A stretch of DNA of 55,784 bases from Candidatus Gastranaerophilales bacterium (GTDB lineage Bacteria > Cyanobacteriota > Vampirovibrionia > Gastranaerophilales > Gastranaerophilaceae), in the NCBI GenBank assembly GCA_905234865.1, contig CAJOJE010000017.1, positions 1-55,784 on the forward strand, given 5' to 3'. Below are positions 10,649 to 55,784 of the stretch, one piece after another. Position 1 is the first letter of the stretch, and each line of letters starts with the position of its first letter. Made by a program: the position numbers and the translations under genes. Under the pieces are notes generated by a model. The model saw only the letters and a list, made by a program, of their open reading frames with translations, ran no database searches and was not told the origin of the DNA.

Positions 10649-12538
10649 ATGACATTCAAAAAGAAGGGTTTTATACAAACCGCAATGACGGTTGCACTTG
10701 CCTTTACGATAGCAAACTGTGCTTGGGCAGGTTTTGATGATAGCAATAATAAACTTGCATATTCTTCAAACGGTTTATCTGCTTGGGATGATTCCGAAAG
10801 TGAAAGCCTTTATTTGGATGACGGTGAAAGCTATATTATTGATGCAAATTCTCCTGAAGCTGTCAGTGTTCCCTCGACGACAAGGTTGACCGGTAATATT
10901 CAAATAGCGGATGATACGGAACTTGTTACATTATCTTTAAGAGATGCCGATGTAAAGCAGGTTTTAAGAGTTTTTGCGGATAAGGCAAAAATGAATATCG
11001 TTTTCCACAACTCCGTATCGGGTGAAGTTACTTTGGATCTTAAAGACGTTCCCGTTAATACCGCTCTTGAATTTGTACTTGATGCCTGCCAATTGACTTA
11101 TGTAAGGCAAGATAACAATATGATTGTTGCTTCCAAAGATGCTGCAAAAGATTTGAGCTATGCAAGACAAAACTTTACGACAATTCCCGTTAAATATGTA
11201 AATGCTCAAATGGTTGCAAATTTCTTAAACAAAAGTATGTTTAACGGAAAATATCAAGGTGTTTCCGCAGTTCCTAACGTTGCGGTTAACGCTACCAAAA
11301 ACGAGTTGATGATATTCGGTACGGATGAAGATGAAAAGCTTGTAAGAAAATTATTAACAAAACTTGATACAAAACCCATGATGAACGTTTTTAGGGTAAA
11401 CCACGTTACTCCTGCCGAAATGGCGGCTACAATTTGCGATACTATTTTGGCGGATAAGTCAAAAGGCAGCTCTGACGGCGTTTCAATTCAAGGACAAAGA
11501 CAAACCGGATCAAGCAACGAAAATGAAATTACGTTAGGCGGCGGTTATACGGTTTGCGTTGTCGGACAAACAACGTCCGGAACCGTTGATGATAGCTCGG
11601 GAAGCGACGATTTTGCAAACTATGCTTCAAATCCTCTTACCGTTGCGTATTTCCCTGAACTTGGAACGGTTACTACATACGGCGGTTCAAGAGAACAGGT
11701 TAAAATGATTGAAAGTTTTATTAAACTTCACGATAAAAAACAACCTATGGCATATATTGAATTTTCTTTAATTCAATTATCGGAAGAAGGCTCAAAAGCT
11801 TTTAACACAGAATGGAGTATGTGGACTCCCGTCGGTGAATTTAACTTCGGACAAGGCGGTTTGTATACAAATCCTTGGGCGCCTACATTCTTTAAAGGCG
11901 GGCATAAGGATGTTTATAGCCAATCTACGCCTGACGTTCAATATACGATACAAAAACCGCATGGTTGGGGTCCTATCGTTATGTCTTTGAACTATTTGTT
12001 GCAAAACGGTAAAGGAAGAACGCTTGCAAATCCTAAAGTTATGGTAACAAACGGCAAAACATCAACTATTGACCTTACATCAGACTATGTTAAAAAGGTT
12101 ACTCAAGAATATACCGGTCAACAATATACCGCCGTTACAAGAAAAACCTATGAAATCGGTTCCGACCAAGGTATCAAAATCGAGGTAACCCCTTTTATAT
12201 CTCCTGACGGTTATGTTGTATTGAACTTAAAACCCGATTATACGGAAATCAGGGAAAGACAAGAAGATTACACGCTCCTTTCAAGAAGAAATCTTGAACT
12301 TGAAAACATAAGAGTAAAAGACGGTGAAACACTTGTTCTTGCAGGTATGGTTCGTGAAGCCGAAACAAACTCCACGACCAAGCTTCCTGTATTGGGCGAC
12401 CTTCCCGTTATAGGTGCGTTTTTCAGAAATTCTTCTTCCAACCTTGACAGAGAAGAATATATTATTCTCGTAACGCCTCACATTGTTTATTCAAAAGAAC
12501 AAGTTGACAGATTGAAAGCACAACAAAATAATTTATAA
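10649..12538 (+). CDS. pilQ: Type IV pilus secretin PilQ
   Basis: A 629-residue outer-membrane secretin, the channel through which the pilus passes. It starts with a signal peptide probably cut after AWA (residue 27). A periplasmic STN/N0 domain follows (about 85-150, with VTLDLKDVPVNTALEFVLDA), then N1-type domains (about 175-360), then the secretin core. The core ends in VKDGETLVLAGMVREA, PVLGDLPVIGAFF and EEYIILVTPHIV, all classical secretin signatures. The presence of a secretin shows that the cell has an outer membrane. A CAGGAG ribosome binding site lies upstream of the ATG. It follows the PilP-like gene by 23 bp and precedes pilB by 8 bp, so the operon is continuous. No AMIN domain was recognised. 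Confidence 0.93.
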   Translation: MTFKKKGFIQTAMTVALAFTIANCAWAGFDDSNNKLAYSSNGLSAWDDSESESLYLDDGESYIIDANSPEAVSVPSTTRLTGNIQIADDTELVTLSLRDADVKQVLRVFADKAKMNIVFHNSVSGEVTLDLKDVPVNTALEFVLDACQLTYVRQDNNMIVASKDAAKDLSYARQNFTTIPVKYVNAQMVANFLNKSMFNGKYQGVSAVPNVAVNATKNELMIFGTDEDEKLVRKLLTKLDTKPMMNVFRVNHVTPAEMAATICDTILADKSKGSSDGVSIQGQRQTGSSNENEITLGGGYTVCVVGQTTSGTVDDSSGSDDFANYASNPLTVAYFPELGTVTTYGGSREQVKMIESFIKLHDKKQPMAYIEFSLIQLSEEGSKAFNTEWSMWTPVGEFNFGQGGLYTNPWAPTFFKGGHKDVYSQSTPDVQYTIQKPHGWGPIVMSLNYLLQNGKGRTLANPKVMVTNGKTSTIDLTSDYVKKVTQEYTGQQYTAVTRKTYEIGSDQGIKIEVTPFISPDGYVVLNLKPDYTEIRERQEDYTLLSRRNLELENIRVKDGETLVLAGMVREAETNSTTKLPVLGDLPVIGAFFRNSSSNLDREEYIILVTPHIVYSKEQVDRLKAQQNNL

Positions 12539-12546
12539 TATAAGAT

Positions 12547-14874
12547 ATGAATAACGAATATTTATCAGCATTATCAAATAAAATTAATATTGATTTGGCG
12601 ATGAAGTTTGATAGAAGCAAACTGGCAGAGCTTACTTTCTTGCCTGTTGCCGTACAAAACGGCATGGGAATTGCGGCGGTTTCTCAGGATTCAGATAAAA
12701 ATGCCGTTGCTTCCTATTTTGCCCGGGTTATAAAAGTAAATAAAGTTGAGTTTATCACAATTCCGTCTCAACAGTTTACGGTTTTATTCCAGCTGATTGT
12801 AAAGAAAATGTCGGTTCAATCTCAAACAATTCAACAAACTCAGTTTCAAGGGCAAGGTTTGGCACAAAATGCGGCTCAAAATTCTGTTCAAAACGTTCAA
12901 ACAATAGATAAACAAAAAGAGGCTCAGCCTATCGTCCAAAGTTCCTCTCAAACTCCGGTTATTCAAAACGGTTCCGAGGGTAATACATCGGATGCTCGTT
13001 CTGTCGTTCAAAATAAAGATGGATCTTTGCAAGAAGAAAAACAAGAACAGCAAAATAATAACGGTAATACCTCTGATAACGGCGAAGAAAGTCAAATAGC
13101 AAAAGTTAAATCGCCTCAAACCAAAAAAATCGGCGAAATTCTGGTTGAAGAAGGACTTTTAACCGAAGAACAAGTTCAAGAAGCGCTTGTCGAATCTAAA
13201 AAAATCGGTTTTCCTTTAGGTTCAACTCTTGTTAAACTCGGGTATATAACGATAAAACAATTAAGAGAAGCGCTTGCGGCTCAAATGCAGGTAAAATTGG
13301 TTTCCGAAGAACAACTTGCTTCAATAACCGAATCAATCGCCTGCCTTTCCGATGAATTTGTAAGAGAACATAAGGTTATACCTCTTTTATATAATTCAAA
13401 ATCTCTAACCGTCGGTATGGTAAATCCAAAAGATACCGACACCATAAATCAAATTATCGGTATGACGGGTTTAAAGCCCAGTGTTTTAATGGTAACTTCT
13501 CTTGAATATGAAAGTTACATTGAACAGTATTATAAAAACCGTCCTCAGAAAAAACCCGTTAAAAAACAAAAATCGTCTCTTGAAGTTTTAACGGAAGAAT
13601 TGAGCTCGTCGTCAGAGGCTTCTCAAGGTGGCGAACAAACTCTTTGGCAAAAGGTTCAATCCGATATTGATGATATTTCGTCTGACGCTGCAAGATATGC
13701 CAATATGATTGTAACTCAAGCTATTGATTCAAGAGCGTCCGATATTCATATTGAACCGAGGCTGGACGGTTATGTTGCCAGATATCGTATTGACGGTACT
13801 TTGGTAGAAGTTGTCAAAATTCCTGCTTATCTTGAATCTTCAATTGTATCGAGGTTTAAAGTTCTTGCTAAAATGAATATTGCAGAGCACAGACGCCCTC
13901 AGGACGGTAATTTTACAATTAAGTATAACGGCGGCTCTTACGACTTCCGTATAAATACTTTACCTGTCAACGGCAGAGAAAAAATAGTTATAAGAATTTT
14001 GGCTCCTTCAATTAAGGTTGAGGACAGCTATACGGATATTATCGATATTCCGGGTGCGTTTGAAGATGATATAGAGAAAATCAAGTTCTTATTGTCCTCT
14101 CCAAACGGTATTGTTCTGACGTCAGGTCCTACCGGTTCAGGTAAAACAACAACGCAGTATGCTCTTTTAAAAACGAAAAACTCGCCCGATACTAATATTA
14201 CGACAATCGAGGATCCTGTTGAAATCAGGCTTGACGGTGTCAATCAGTCTGCCGTTAATCCAAAAGCAGGCATTACTTTTGCTTCTTGTATGAGAGCGAT
14301 ATTAAGGCAAGACCCTGATATTATACTTATCGGAGAGATTCGTGACTATGAAACTTTAGAAACCGCTATTTCGGCTTCATTGACGGGTCACTTTGTTTTA
14401 TCGACAATTCACACCAACTCTGCCGCCGCAACCGTTACAAGACTTATTGAGATGGGTGCTAAGGATTATTTGATTTCATCAACTTTAAACGGAGTTATTG
14501 CTCAAAGGCTCGTAAAGCAACTGTGTCCTTACTGTAAAAAAGGCTATAAACCTACATTGGAAGAAGTATCCAAAATTACTCATGACCCTGAAGAACAACA
14601 AAAAATTATGAATACCACGATTTATAAAGCGACAGGTTGCCCAAGCTGCGATAATACAGGGTATAAAGGACGTTTGGCTTTACTTGAAATTTTAATTATC
14701 ACAAAAGATATTAAAAAATTAATTGCTCAAAAAGCTCATGATATTGAAATTGAAGATTTCGCAGTTGCAAATAACGGTATGCGCACTCTTGAAGGTGCCT
14801 GCATAAGGCATATTATTGAAGGCAGTACTTCAATAGACGAATTTGTAAGAGTTCTCGGATTGGTTGGTGACTAA
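12547..14874 (+). CDS. pilB: Type IV pilus extension ATPase PilB (GspE family)
   Basis: A 775-residue hexameric ATPase that powers pilus polymerisation at the inner membrane. An N-terminal region is followed by a Gln-rich low-complexity linker (about 85-185), then a GspE/MshEN N-terminal domain (about 190-330, KKIGEILVEEGLLTEEQVQEA) and the motor domain. The Walker A motif GPTGSGKTTT lies near 527, Walker B in DPDIILIGEIRD near 588, followed by the His-box TGHFVLSTIHTN. Two CxxC pairs (CPYC near 660, CPSC near 699) form the tetracysteine zinc site typical of PilB. The protein is longer than usual because of the N-terminal extension and linker. Its stop overlaps the pilC ATG by one base. PilT, the retraction ATPase, is not in the window. 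Confidence 0.94.
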   Translation: MNNEYLSALSNKINIDLAMKFDRSKLAELTFLPVAVQNGMGIAAVSQDSDKNAVASYFARVIKVNKVEFITIPSQQFTVLFQLIVKKMSVQSQTIQQTQFQGQGLAQNAAQNSVQNVQTIDKQKEAQPIVQSSSQTPVIQNGSEGNTSDARSVVQNKDGSLQEEKQEQQNNNGNTSDNGEESQIAKVKSPQTKKIGEILVEEGLLTEEQVQEALVESKKIGFPLGSTLVKLGYITIKQLREALAAQMQVKLVSEEQLASITESIACLSDEFVREHKVIPLLYNSKSLTVGMVNPKDTDTINQIIGMTGLKPSVLMVTSLEYESYIEQYYKNRPQKKPVKKQKSSLEVLTEELSSSSEASQGGEQTLWQKVQSDIDDISSDAARYANMIVTQAIDSRASDIHIEPRLDGYVARYRIDGTLVEVVKIPAYLESSIVSRFKVLAKMNIAEHRRPQDGNFTIKYNGGSYDFRINTLPVNGREKIVIRILAPSIKVEDSYTDIIDIPGAFEDDIEKIKFLLSSPNGIVLTSGPTGSGKTTTQYALLKTKNSPDTNITTIEDPVEIRLDGVNQSAVNPKAGITFASCMRAILRQDPDIILIGEIRDYETLETAISASLTGHFVLSTIHTNSAAATVTRLIEMGAKDYLISSTLNGVIAQRLVKQLCPYCKKGYKPTLEEVSKITHDPEEQQKIMNTTIYKATGCPSCDNTGYKGRLALLEILIITKDIKKLIAQKAHDIEIEDFAVANNGMRTLEGACIRHIIEGSTSIDEFVRVLGLVGD

Positions 14875-16094
14875 TGCCTAATTATAAGTATGTTGCAATG
14901 AAAAATAACAGACAATCCGTATCAGGCAGAATCGATGCTACGGATATTCAGGCTGCAAGAACCGCAATAAGGAAATTGGGCTTAATTCCGGTTAAGATAA
15001 ATGAGGATATTGATTTTCTGGAAAAAGAAAGAAAAGCAAGGGCAAAAAGAAATGAACTTCCGGAACTTCCATTAAGAGATAAAATAGACTTTACGACAAC
15101 GCTTCAAATTTTAACCGCAACGGGTATTCCTATTATCGAAACACTTGCATTTATGGAAGAAAATGCAGAACGACCAAAAGTAAAACATGCATGTTCCGTT
15201 ATTAAAAATCAAATCGTAAACGGCGCTACTCTCGCAGAAACAATGGAGAAAAACAGAAAAGCATTCGGCAGAGTGTACGCAGGTCTTACAAGAGCAGGGG
15301 AAGATTCGGGGGAATTGGACGTTACGCTTGCCCGTATGTTGGATTTATTAAAAAAGCAGGCAAGTATTAAATCAAGAGTAATAGGTGCGCTTGTTTATCC
15401 TTGTTTTGTTATCTTGCTTGCGATTGCGGTTGTTATAGTTATGCTTGCGTTCGTATTTCCTGCTTTTGAATCAATGTTTGAATCGTTGGGCGGAAAACTT
15501 CCCTTCATTACTAAAATGTGTATTGATGCGGGGCACTTTATCGTAGAGTATTGGTGGGTAATGATAATTGCGACAATCTTGATTATTGCTTCAATTATTT
15601 TTGCCTTTAAAAATGAATTTACAAAAAGAATTATTGACAGAGTCGTATTAAAAGTTCCTCTGTTAAACGGTTTGATGAGATTTTCCAATTATTCTAATTT
15701 TCTTGCCGTTTTACAGGTTGCATACGATGCCGGTATTCCCGTCGTAAACTGCTTGTATCTTGCGAATTTAACTTTGGAAAATATGATATTAAGAGATAAT
15801 ATTTCACAAGCTGCCCTAAGAGTTCAACAGGGTGAAAATTTATCCTCGGCTATGAGGGCAACAAAGCAAGTGCCCAATATGATACTTTTTATGATTGCAA
15901 CGGGCGAACAATCCGGTCGTTTGGGCGATATGTTGATGAATTGTACGATGTATATTGATAAAAAACTTGATGAAATTATTGATACGTTTACAAGATTGGT
16001 CGAACCTTTTATGTTGGTTGTAATCGGTGCGGTCGTACTGTTCTTGGCTTTATCTTTATATATGCCTTTGTTTGGTATTTACAACGAAATCTAG
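14874..16094 (+). CDS. pilC: Type IV pilus inner-membrane platform protein PilC
   Basis: A 406-residue polytopic protein of the GspF/PilC family, the inner-membrane platform on which PilB acts. It has a short N-terminal segment (YKYVAMKNNRQSVSGRIDA) and two T2SF domains (about 70-190 and 275-395). The first ends in ARMLDLLKKQASIKSRVIGALVYP, the hallmark of the family, and each is followed by membrane helices (about 170-195, 220-245 and 375-400). The length is typical. Translation is coupled to pilB by the TAATG overlap. It is the last structural pilus gene here; pilins, prepilin peptidase and PilT must be encoded elsewhere. Confidence 0.94.
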   Translation: MPNYKYVAMKNNRQSVSGRIDATDIQAARTAIRKLGLIPVKINEDIDFLEKERKARAKRNELPELPLRDKIDFTTTLQILTATGIPIIETLAFMEENAERPKVKHACSVIKNQIVNGATLAETMEKNRKAFGRVYAGLTRAGEDSGELDVTLARMLDLLKKQASIKSRVIGALVYPCFVILLAIAVVIVMLAFVFPAFESMFESLGGKLPFITKMCIDAGHFIVEYWWVMIIATILIIASIIFAFKNEFTKRIIDRVVLKVPLLNGLMRFSNYSNFLAVLQVAYDAGIPVVNCLYLANLTLENMILRDNISQAALRVQQGENLSSAMRATKQVPNMILFMIATGEQSGRLGDMLMNCTMYIDKKLDEIIDTFTRLVEPFMLVVIGAVVLFLALSLYMPLFGIYNEI

Positions 16095-52099: not shown

Positions 52100-55000
52100 A
52101 TGAAAAAAACTATTACGGTTGACGGTAACTACGCTGCTGCGCATGTTGCTTATGCGTTAAGCGAAGTATCCGCAATTTATCCCATTACTCCTTCTTCTAC
52201 TATGGGTGAATGGGTTGACGAATGGGCTTCTCAACATAAAAAAAATATTTGGGGAAAAGAAGTCAAAGTTGCCGAAATGCAATCTGAAGCAGGTGCGGCA
52301 GGTGCCGTTCATGGTTCTTTGGCGGCAGGTGCTTTAACTTCTACATATACTGCTTCTCAGGGCTTATTGTTAATGATTCCCGTTATGCACAAAGTGGCAG
52401 GCGAAATGCTTCCTCATGTTATCCATGTTTCCGCTCGTGCTCTTGCTGCTCAATCATTGGCAATTTTTGGCGACCATACCGATGTTATGGGCTGCCGTAA
52501 CACAGGTTATGCAATGCTTGCGGCAAATTCCGTTCAAGAAGAAATGGATTTGGCTTTAGTTGCACATCTTTCTACATATAAAGCAAAAGTTCCTTTCCTC
52601 CAATTCTTCGACGGTTTTAGAACATCTCATGAAATTCATAAAATTGAAGAAATCTCTTATGAAGAAATTGCTTCATTGGTTGAACCCAAATATATCGAAG
52701 AATTCAGACAAAGAGCTTTAAGACCGGAAGCTCCGGTTTGTAAAGTCGGCGCACAAAATACCGATGTTTACTTCCAAGGCAGAGAAACGGTCAATAAATA
52801 TTATGAAATGGTTCCCGATATCGTTCAAGAATATATGGATAAAGTTGCAAAAGTAACCGGCAGACAATATCACCCGTTTGATTACGTCGGTGCTCCCGAT
52901 GCAACCGATGTTATCGTTGCAATAGGCTCTTCTTGCGAAACTATTGAAGAGGCTATTGAATACTTAAATTCTACAAGAGGTACAAAATATGGTCTTGTAA
53001 AAGTCAGATTATACAGACCTTTTGATACAAAACGTTTCAACGCCGTTCTTCCGAAAACAGTTAAAAGAATTAATGTTTTAGACAGAACGAAAGAACCCGG
53101 TTCAATCGGCGAACCTTTATATTTAGATGTTGTTGCAGCTCTTGATAATAAAGATATAAGAGTTATCGGCGGAAGATACGGTTTATCTTCAAAAGAATTT
53201 ACTCCGTCCATGGTTCTTGCGGTTTATAAACATGGAGAGAAAAACGGTTTCCATAACTTCACCGTAGGTATCGAAGACGATGTTACGAATAAATCGTTAA
53301 AAATTGACGAACACATTGTAACAGAACCTGTCGGCACAACAAACTGTATGTTCTGGGGCTTAGGCTCGGACGGTACGGTTGGTGCTAATAAAAACTCAAT
53401 TAAAATTATTGGTCAATACACAAATAAAGATGCTCAAGCATATTTTGCTTATGATTCTAAAAAATCATTCGGCGTTACCGTTTCTCACTTGAGATTTGGC
53501 GACAAACCGATTAAATCGACTTATTTAATTACGGCACCCGATTTTGTTTCATGCTCAGCTCATGCTTATATCGGAAGATACGATTTATTAAAAGGCATTA
53601 AAGAAGGCGGAACTTTCTTATTAAATAGCCCCTATACAAAAGAAGAAGCATTCTCACACTTAACAAGAGATATGCAAAAAACTATTATTGATAAAAAAGT
53701 TAAATTCTATAACGTTGACGCTGAAAAATTAATCAAAGAACAACCGGGGCTAAGAGGCAAAGGTGCAAATACCGTTATGATGGTTGCATACTTTAAAGTA
53801 TCAGGCATTATTCCGTTTGAACAAGCTCTTGAAGGTATGAGAGAAATGACAAAGAAAACCTTTAAGAAAAAAGGCGACGATGTTGTTAATATGAACCTTG
53901 CTTTGATTGATGCTGCGGTTAACGCAACTGAAGAAGTCGTTATTCCTAAATCATTAGACGGTGTAAAATCAGTTGATGAAGTTGAATTGATTTCAAAAGA
54001 TGCAGATGATTTTGCAAAGAAGATTATTGAACCCTCTATGCGTCAAAAAGGCGACGATATTCCCGTTAGCGCAATGAGCGTTGACGGTGTTATCCCAACA
54101 GGTACTTCTTGTTTAGAAAAAAGAGGAATTGCTCCAAGAGTTCCTCATTGGAATTCCGCTAATTGTATTCAATGCGGTATCTGCGCTTCTGCTTGTCCGC
54201 ATGCTGCAATCAGAACAAAATTAGCAGAAAGTAAAGACCTTAAAAATGCTCCCGAATCATTCAATACAGTTGCTGCAAGACCGGCTTTAGCCGATGAACA
54301 ATTTAAAGTTCAAGTATATTGTAAAGATTGTACAGGCTGCGGTGTTTGCGTAGATCAATGTCCTGCTAATAAAAACCCTGAAAAACAAGCTCTTGTTTGG
54401 TCAACAATCGAAAAAGAAGAAGCATTGGGTGAAGTTGTTAATGAAAAATTCTTTGATGAATTGCCTGATAACGTTATGGGTAAAAATACAACCAAAACAA
54501 TTAAAGGTGCAATGTTAAGAAAACCTTTATTTGAGTTCTCAGGCGCATGCGCCGGTTGTGGTGAAACACCTTATGTAAAACTTGTTTCCCAATTGTTTGG
54601 AGAAAATGCTATCGTTGCAAACGCAACGGGTTGTTCCTCGATTTACTCGGGTACTTTCCCCACAATTCCTTATACAAAAACTAAAGAAGGCAGAGGACCC
54701 GCTTGGGCAAATTCATTGTTTGAAGATAATGCCGAATTTGGTTTTGGTATGAGGCTTGCTATTGATTCAAACAGAGAGTTATTAAAAGAAAACGTAGAAA
54801 AAGTTCTCAATAACCCTGAAGCTAAAGCTGACGTAAAAGAAGCTCTCGAAGAAGCTATGAAACATTGGGATAATTCAAAAACAGAAGAAGCAGTTAAAGC
54901 ACAAAATAAAGTTAAAGAAGTTTTAGCAAAACATGCTGATGAACTCTGCCCCGCATGTGCAAAAATCAGAGAACTTCAAGATTACTTTACCGATAAATCA

Positions 55001-55630
55001 GTTTGGATTATTGGCGGCGACGGCTGGGCAAACGATATCGGATACGGCGGTATTGACCATGTTTTAGCTCAAAAACAAAATGTTAATATTTTGGTTCTTG
55101 ATACCGAGGTGTACTCCAATACGGGCGGCCAAGCTTCAAAATCAACTCCGACAGGTGCTGTCGCAAAATTTGCAACAGGCGGCAAACCTACATATAAGAA
55201 AAATATGGGCTTGATGAGTATGAGCTATGGGTATGTTTATGTTGCATCCGTTGCTCTTGGCGCTGATAGAGGACAAACCCTAAAAGCATTCCAAGAAGCT
55301 GAAAGCTATAACGGTCCTTCTATCATTTTTGCTTACGCTCCTTGTATTGCTCATGGTATTGACATGAGTAAAACTCAAACAGAGCAAAAACGTGCGGTTG
55401 AAGCGGGATATTATCCTTTATACAGATACAACCCGAATAATGAAACTCCGTTTACTTGGGATGCAAAAGATCCAAAAGGAAGCTACCAAGAATTCATAAG
55501 ATCAGAAGGCAGATATAAATCACTTCTTAAAACCAATCCGGAAGCTGCTGAAGAGTTATATGCCAAAGCAGAAGCTGATGCGGCACAAAGAATGTCTGTT
55601 TATAAAGCAGTCGGCGAACTTATGAAATAG
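52100..55630 (+). CDS. nifJ: Pyruvate:ferredoxin (flavodoxin) oxidoreductase
   Basis: A 1176-residue, single-chain PFOR. It oxidises pyruvate with CoA to acetyl-CoA and CO2 and reduces ferredoxin, the key step of anaerobic pyruvate use. Domain order: a pyrimidine-binding half (about 1-250, SAIYPITPSSTMGEW), a CoA/transketolase-C-like domain (about 260-400), a gamma domain (about 410-620), a two-cluster ferredoxin domain (CIQCGICASACPHA near 690, CKDCTGCGVCVDQCP near 740) and the thiamine diphosphate domain. The last has the third cluster's CAGCGETPY near 815 and GGDGWANDIGYGGIDH near 973. The length is typical of the homodimeric enzyme. GGAGG precedes the ATG. Genes of highly expressed character and a terminator on each side suggest a monocistronic mRNA. 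Confidence 0.97.
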   Translation: MKKTITVDGNYAAAHVAYALSEVSAIYPITPSSTMGEWVDEWASQHKKNIWGKEVKVAEMQSEAGAAGAVHGSLAAGALTSTYTASQGLLLMIPVMHKVAGEMLPHVIHVSARALAAQSLAIFGDHTDVMGCRNTGYAMLAANSVQEEMDLALVAHLSTYKAKVPFLQFFDGFRTSHEIHKIEEISYEEIASLVEPKYIEEFRQRALRPEAPVCKVGAQNTDVYFQGRETVNKYYEMVPDIVQEYMDKVAKVTGRQYHPFDYVGAPDATDVIVAIGSSCETIEEAIEYLNSTRGTKYGLVKVRLYRPFDTKRFNAVLPKTVKRINVLDRTKEPGSIGEPLYLDVVAALDNKDIRVIGGRYGLSSKEFTPSMVLAVYKHGEKNGFHNFTVGIEDDVTNKSLKIDEHIVTEPVGTTNCMFWGLGSDGTVGANKNSIKIIGQYTNKDAQAYFAYDSKKSFGVTVSHLRFGDKPIKSTYLITAPDFVSCSAHAYIGRYDLLKGIKEGGTFLLNSPYTKEEAFSHLTRDMQKTIIDKKVKFYNVDAEKLIKEQPGLRGKGANTVMMVAYFKVSGIIPFEQALEGMREMTKKTFKKKGDDVVNMNLALIDAAVNATEEVVIPKSLDGVKSVDEVELISKDADDFAKKIIEPSMRQKGDDIPVSAMSVDGVIPTGTSCLEKRGIAPRVPHWNSANCIQCGICASACPHAAIRTKLAESKDLKNAPESFNTVAARPALADEQFKVQVYCKDCTGCGVCVDQCPANKNPEKQALVWSTIEKEEALGEVVNEKFFDELPDNVMGKNTTKTIKGAMLRKPLFEFSGACAGCGETPYVKLVSQLFGENAIVANATGCSSIYSGTFPTIPYTKTKEGRGPAWANSLFEDNAEFGFGMRLAIDSNRELLKENVEKVLNNPEAKADVKEALEEAMKHWDNSKTEEAVKAQNKVKEVLAKHADELCPACAKIRELQDYFTDKSVWIIGGDGWANDIGYGGIDHVLAQKQNVNILVLDTEVYSNTGGQASKSTPTGAVAKFATGGKPTYKKNMGLMSMSYGYVYVASVALGADRGQTLKAFQEAESYNGPSIIFAYAPCIAHGIDMSKTQTEQKRAVEAGYYPLYRYNPNNETPFTWDAKDPKGSYQEFIRSEGRYKSLLKTNPEAAEELYAKAEADAAQRMSVYKAVGELMK

Positions 55631-55653: not shown

Positions 55654-55697
55654 AAATCGGCACCTGAGTTTATTTTTTAATTAGGTGCCGATTTTTT
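55654..55697 (+). terminator. Terminator of nifJ
   Basis: AAATCGGCACCT (55654-55665) and AGGTGCCGATTT (55683-55694) form a perfect 12-bp stem with a 17-base loop, followed by a T-run. Confidence 0.9.
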
Positions 55698-55701
55698 AAT
55701 A

Positions 55702-55730
55702 TTGCAAAATTCTTATACATTCTATATAAT
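55702..55730 (+). promoter_or_regulatory. Strong promoter of the right-end gene
   Basis: TTGCAA (55702-55707) and a perfect TATAAT (55725-55730) are exactly 17 bases apart, about 25 bases before an ATG with AAAGGGG upstream. Confidence 0.75.
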
Positions 55731-55754
55731 AAAAATATCAAAAAGGGGTAATTT

Positions 55755-55784
55755 ATGAATTTAAAACGGTTTACCCCCCCCCCC
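55755..55784 (+). CDS. 5' end of a gene containing a poly-C tract (partial)
   Basis: ATG at 55755 follows AAAAGGGG and a consensus promoter, so a real gene starts here. Only MNLKRFTPPPP-type residues can be read before the window ends. From 55774 on, all 11 bases are C. Such a run a few codons inside a gene is rare in an A+T-rich genome and is the usual form of a phase-variable switch. The product is unknown; the first five residues equal those of the acyltransferase at 1585-2652, which may be chance. Confidence 0.6.
   Translation, partial: MNLKRFTPPP
55774..55784 (+). repeat. Poly-C tract of at least 11 bases at the contig end
   Basis: Eleven consecutive C close the window, starting with the seventh codon of a new gene. 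The true length is unknown because the sequence stops inside the run. Assembly commonly fails at homopolymers that vary between cells or that are hard to sequence. Confidence 0.85.

Follow-up and report, generated by a model that had tools for sequence, protein, structure and literature searches.

What gene starts at the right-hand end of this contig, and does the run of cytosines in which the assembly breaks off set its reading frame? The window, which is the whole stretch of 55,784 nucleotides analysed here, corresponds to contig 17 (C17) of a 22-contig, 1.87-Mb genome, and its final elements are a promoter-like pair of hexamers, a ribosome binding site (RBS), an ATG and a tract of A plus 11 C that begins 19 nt past the ATG (Table 1). 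The contig stops inside the tract, so that this copy shows the leader half alone. The initial annotation had described a promoter and an RBS leading into an ATG, with a run of at least 11 C seven codons after the start, and our reading agrees on each point, the frame being ATG AAT TTA AAA CGG TTT ACC CCC... up to the contig end. The TTGCAA/TATAAT pair matches 10/12 consensus positions; shuffled sequences gave a mean of 1.8 promoter matches of this grade and the single match in the window is not above that level, thus the promoter call rests on its position and on conservation between copies. The window has a G+C content of 34%, all its other C runs are no longer than 5, and 0.10 nine-C matches were expected, compared with 3 overlapping matches observed, a count that 0/100 shuffles reached. 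We therefore do not regard the C11 run as a product of chance, in line with the earlier remark that long C runs are very unusual in this sequence.

Table 1. Features of the window and of the two internal copies of its leader and tract
Feature	Position	Strand	Remarks
Secretin, MshEN/T2SSE ATPase and T2SSF platform genes	10649..16094	+	In the window; ATPase gene between secretin and platform gene
Pyruvate:ferredoxin oxidoreductase gene	52100-55630		Upstream of the terminator
Likely terminator (inverted repeat AAATCGGCACCT / AGGTGCCGATTT with a T run) for the pyruvate:ferredoxin oxidoreductase gene upstream	55654..55694	+	Read from the sequence
-35-like TTGCAA	55702-55707	+	Read from the sequence
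-10 TATAAT	55725-55730	+	17-nt spacer from the -35; hexamers kept in the C15 copy
RBS AGGGG	55744..55748	+	6 nt 5' of the ATG; no difference among 4 copies, one mismatch in a fifth
Start codon ATG	55755-55757	+	Read from the sequence
Start and leader codons ATG AAT TTA AAA CGG TTT A (MNLKRF...)	55755..55773	+	Leader reaches a prepilin at C4:123272
Poly-C tract of at least 11, proposed slipped-strand switch	55774..55784	+	55784 is the final base of the contig
Tract A plus C11, contig C4	C4:123272-123282		In frame: ATG frame continues as MNLKRFTPPPEEKRGLSGVKKKNKKKYNRKVAFTLAETLIALAII into a 419-aa prepilin (GFTLAE motif)
Tract C14, contig C15	C15:756-769		Out of frame: ATG frame stops shortly after the tract; intact 414-aa prepilin frame (GFTLAE motif) beyond

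A search for further long C/G runs near start codons had been proposed along with the annotation. Only five tracts of at least nine C or G exist in the 1.87-Mb genome, and 4/5 are preceded by the identical 30-bp leader AAAAAGGGGTAATTTATGAATTTAAAACGG, namely at the end of C17 and the start of C4, which are both contig ends, and at C4:123272 and C15:756, which are both internal. Since leader and tract lie inside contigs C4 and C15 and run into coding sequence, the tract is not an artefact of end trimming, of which the initial annotation had warned. A fifth leader copy with one base different was found at the end of contig C2, and two relatives whose tracts are interrupted or short, C1:314197 and C4:49041, are each in frame, which is what locked copies would be expected to show. 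A G8 copy at C5:21110, considered as an OFF copy, was dropped and excluded from the switching evidence, its pilin being degraded. Among 9 genomes of the genus the leader itself is present in this genome alone, and exact searches of viral contigs and of the collection of named genomes gave no match; equivalent tracts are borne by other leaders. The named records with related leaders belong to Candidatus Gastranaerophilales, which places the genome in this order or close to it. Window positions 55674-55721 are matched in contig C15 by L012:656-703, a duplicated right half of the terminator lying 5' of the C15 prepilin, and C15:656-755 holds the right terminator arm alone, followed by window-like sequence. 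The promoter-leader-tract cassette of C15 was therefore probably copied from the window locus, with the terminator half left as a scar. Recombination between pilins could be permitted by the shared leaders.

These copies point to the class of gene that is to be expected past the window. The assembled copies carry the prepilin cleavage/methylation motif together with a hydrophobic helix; the C15 protein scored 25.2 bits against PF07963 (cut-off 21.2) and also matched TIGR02532, and the protein at C4:123k scored 16.8 bits against PF07963 when searched alone (under the cut-off of 21.2) and 22.5 (over it) when the genome was searched. We thus predict a prepilin beyond the tract of the window, with GAAGAAAAACGGGG on the 3' side of the tract. 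The genome encodes both a prepilin peptidase, as one gene with its single PF01478 match, and an assembly machine: there are six PF00437 matches, five of them above cut-off, and the secretin, ATPase and T2SSF genes in the window would be expected to form the type IV pilus/type II-like apparatus for these prepilins. The number of prepilin motifs is 35 in this genome and 42 to 146 in related ones, so that genomes of about 2 Mb have between 35 and 146. The expansion is extreme in G206, G126, G157, G173 and G123, with 87 to 146 motifs per roughly 2-Mb genome.

Mixed tract lengths in the population had been suggested as a cause for the break of the contig within the tract. Eight contig-end pairs of this assembly share exactly 99 bases, which is the signature of a repeat break at an assembly k of about 99. 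The C17 end and the C4 start share only 63 bases and none of the other sequence examined contains the last 65-mer of C17, so an ordinary merging of repeats does not account for the C17 end and plain repeat collapse was discarded as its cause. Both ends stop after A plus C11, and an assembly fork at which the next base is either G (n = 11) or C (n >= 12) would be the simplest cause of the break, consistent with mixed lengths. The earlier explanation is plausible, though indirect; possible alternatives are a dead end in coverage and an unbinned contig that is shared. Synteny in seven relatives yielded other genes after the pyruvate:ferredoxin oxidoreductase and did not identify the follower of the window; in G002 alone, a pilin-like C-terminal stretch lies there on the opposite strand. 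Candidates for the missing continuation of the window leader are two prepilin bodies devoid of an N-terminus, one at the start of C14 and one, reversed, at the end of C6, with an N-terminus type as in C4:49041. Most breaks of the assembly fall within near-identical prepilin paralogues (both ends of C22, the starts of C10, C12, C14, C1 and C11, and the ends of C6, C13 and C3). As tracts and paralogues break assemblies, metagenome-assembled genomes probably list too few pilin genes, and breaks within near-identical paralogues make it likely that pilin genes are lost or chimeric in the metagenome-assembled genomes of this group.

Tracts of this kind are not confined to the genome of the window. 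A tract of at least seven C 5' of a prepilin motif was found in 46/288 family genomes from 12/41 genera, with only 2 genomes matched by a reversed-pattern control, while a tract of at least nine G in this position was found in 30/97 family genomes from 17/41 genera, with 0 control matches. In a phylum sample, the C-tract pattern (C>=9) was present in 19/48 family genomes and in 0/69 genomes outside the family. Runs of C40-C52 at contig ends in other genomes (L102, L120) were omitted as probable artefacts. Tracts in prepilin leaders are thus a feature of many genera of the family, and they occur in all three frame states.

We determined the frame state at 148 leader tracts from 37 assemblies, whose loci are not independent, so that the statistics are indicative only. 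In tract-to-motif segments of at least 25 nt the pilin frame is open in 94/94 cases, compared with 7 and 2 for the other two frames, which means that the spacer is coding and that it must be translated from the tract onwards. The RBS-preceded upstream ATG is in frame at 16/148 loci, one base long at 33 and one base short at 99, with per-genome averages of 13%, 31% and 56%, respectively; in-frame copies are hence rarer than one in three.

Taken together, we consider it likely, with a probability of roughly 0.7, that a large prepilin repertoire undergoes slipped-strand translational phase variation, that the switch sits in the leader removed by the peptidase, and that most copies are OFF in the consensus assemblies. 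The proposal of a phase-variable gene in the initial annotation is hereby supported from the comparison, which supplies prepilins as the gene class, four sites with the same leader, and C or G tracts across genera. The repeat is longer than chance would produce. It lies in the 5' coding region where it sets the frame, with an RBS and ATG before the tract and all of the long spacers open, as the window copy displays for the leader half. Alleles of both states with conserved flanks occur at C4:123272 (in frame) and C15:756 (out of frame), in G049 with five of each, and in G008, a genome of the same genus as the window, with C13 against C11 and C12.

Under such phase variation, translation from the ATG at 55755 would have to pass through the C run before arriving at the downstream prepilin motif, and slipped-strand mispairing in living cells would alter the C count by one. 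One length in three would join leader and pilin (ON), and the other two would yield no more than a short peptide (OFF). Since the G/A↓F(T/S)LxE cleavage site is situated downstream of the tract, prepilin peptidase is expected to cut the tract off together with the leader and, going by what is known of class III signal peptide processing, any added Pro or Gly residues should leave with it. Any in-frame length should then yield an identical mature pilin, which would place the switch where the mature protein pays nothing. With this device repeated on many paralogues, most of them OFF, the population would display a shifting few members of a large repertoire.

Differences in length between closely related copies are frequent. 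In G008, copies with one leader carry C11 or C12 (out of frame) or C13 (in frame), copies of one leader in G045 carry G10, G12 or G13, and a tandem pair in G030 carries G10 and G12. In pairs of copies that are 85-95% identical downstream, 12/22 differ in tract length (13/23 before the artefactual contig end L118 was dropped). Tract length changes faster than the flanks.

The most serious rival is programmed slippage, where a fixed slippery site one base short would be read through by -1 ribosomal frameshifting, or corrected by extra-base transcripts, to give a low but steady level of pilin from unchanged DNA. The poly-C tract of Helicobacter pylori fucT2, with programmed frameshifting, is the model for such ribosomal slippage restoring the frame. 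Its appeal comes from the fact that 99/132 out-of-frame tracts are exactly one base short, with the pilin frames downstream intact, and from the uniformity within genomes: all 12/12 C tracts of G206 are C10 and one short, 16/18 G tracts of G030 are one short, and genus g38 has C9 at nearly all loci, this bias persisting though lead and spacer lengths vary. Tracts that slip freely would not usually be so uniform in length within genomes, and the uniformity suits this rival. However, a frameshift cassette would have a constant shift direction, and the direction is constant only in G206, most of g38 and G030, whereas it is mixed in G008, G045 and G049 and opposite in G266 (6/6 copies). The same leader with C11 and with C12 in G008 would need opposite shifts, and half of the copies in G049 (5/10, with tracts of G9-G11) are in frame already. 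In addition, both C (Pro) and G (Gly) tracts are in use, the spacers range from 12 to over 100 nt, over which a common stimulating element would not be expected, and unlike in fucT2, we identified no fixed slippery heptamer or stimulator. We hence judge programmed slippage to be unlikely. Uniform one-short lengths indicate either silent pilins that a single insertion would turn ON or a programmed slippage site, and the opposite directions in G266, G008, G045 and G049 favour the former.

It could further be argued that the tract is an ordinary proline- or glycine-coding run or 5' untranslated sequence and that the pilin starts on its 3' side, making the frame relation irrelevant. The C15 copy indeed carries an in-frame ATG after its tract (ATG AAA AAA GGA, immediately 5' of the prepilin motif) and might be translated anyway, and at L099, L100 and L106 an RBS-preceded ATG lies 3' of the tract. 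Nevertheless, an in-frame ATG between tract and motif is missing at 73/89 loci, 89% of loci would not be out of frame if the run were simply coding in frame, and the spacers that are open back to the tract argue in the same direction, leaving this explanation very improbable. Slighter still are the chances of an assembly artefact, in which true in-frame lengths were called one base short or the C run arose as a poly-G sequencing artefact: a one-base deficit is indeed a typical homopolymer error and the C40-C52 contig ends resemble two-colour poly-G artefacts, but the tracts lie internally in contigs between coding halves, C9 tracts are seen in g38 records with NODE and k127 contig names (by convention from short-read assemblers), and equal tracts in G008 are in frame in 14/23 other genes compared with 1/17 prepilins (Fisher P 0.0006), which speaks against general under-calling and makes the OFF bias peculiar to prepilins.

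Going back to phase variation, we tentatively extend it, at somewhat less than even odds, to a repertoire that is silent by default throughout the family. Dozens of prepilin paralogues per genome would each be kept exactly one base short by a C or G tract in the discarded leader, as independent one-base switches, so that an insertion would give a rare, transient ON state and a contraction would leave the gene silent, resulting in the display of one or few of many pilins. Such a system suggests a possible reason for the large prepilin families.

Many variant copies of a surface protein, few of which are expressed at once, are known from Neisseria pilE/pilS and Mycoplasma vlhA/vsa. The repertoire proposed here would resemble these, although each gene would have its own start and its own switch. 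The tract of pilC sits in the signal-peptide region. In Neisseria gonorrhoeae pilC1/pilC2, an early-coding poly-G homopolymer switches the expression of a pilus gene by frame (PMC5320596). The tracts described here are likewise homopolymers near the start of a pilus-related gene, whereas pilC encodes a pilus-associated protein in two copies and our case concerns the leaders of prepilins with many paralogues per genome in a non-photosynthetic cyanobacterial relative. The AT-rich gut bacterium Campylobacter jejuni NCTC11168 has 29 loci with G/C tracts of at least 7 in reading frames (PMC4965091); G008, with 61 matches to a tract of C8 or longer, several of them in glycosyltransferases, is similar, but unlike the set described in that study ours includes a prepilin repertoire with tracts strongly biased towards out-of-frame lengths. 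Homopolymer phase variation as a class is hence known from pilC and C. jejuni. In the open-licence PMC literature we found no description of such a tract within the leader that is cleaved off in a large family of prepilins, and no report of phase variation in this lineage, which agrees with the statement in the initial annotation that such loci were not known in this kind of organism. A review lists as open why genomes with many phase-variable loci seem to be confined to pathogens (PMC11868660), and here a many-locus system would belong to a lineage of uncultured gut commensals that branches on the side of the cyanobacteria.

The tracts of G008 are also located in GT2, GT8, GT9 and GT11 glycosyltransferases, a polysialyltransferase-like gene, a deacetylase and an acyltransferase. 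Examples with C or G tracts of 10-16 in surface genes, some of them splitting the frame, include L156, L164, L169, L173, L174, L183, L184, L188 and L190, where the genes encode glycosyltransferases (GT2, GT8, GT11), a polysialyltransferase-like protein, a polysaccharide deacetylase, an epimerase and an acyltransferase. Glycosyltransferases and similar surface genes are the usual targets in phase-variable genomes, and these loci may be regarded as a Campylobacter-like set of phase-variable candidates. In the genome of the window, the fifth tract, a C12 at C14:47403-47414 (L011:4404-4415), lies between an N-terminal zinc-ribbon frame and a membrane/TPR frame that are not joined, and marks a second candidate phase-variable gene, which is not a pilin.
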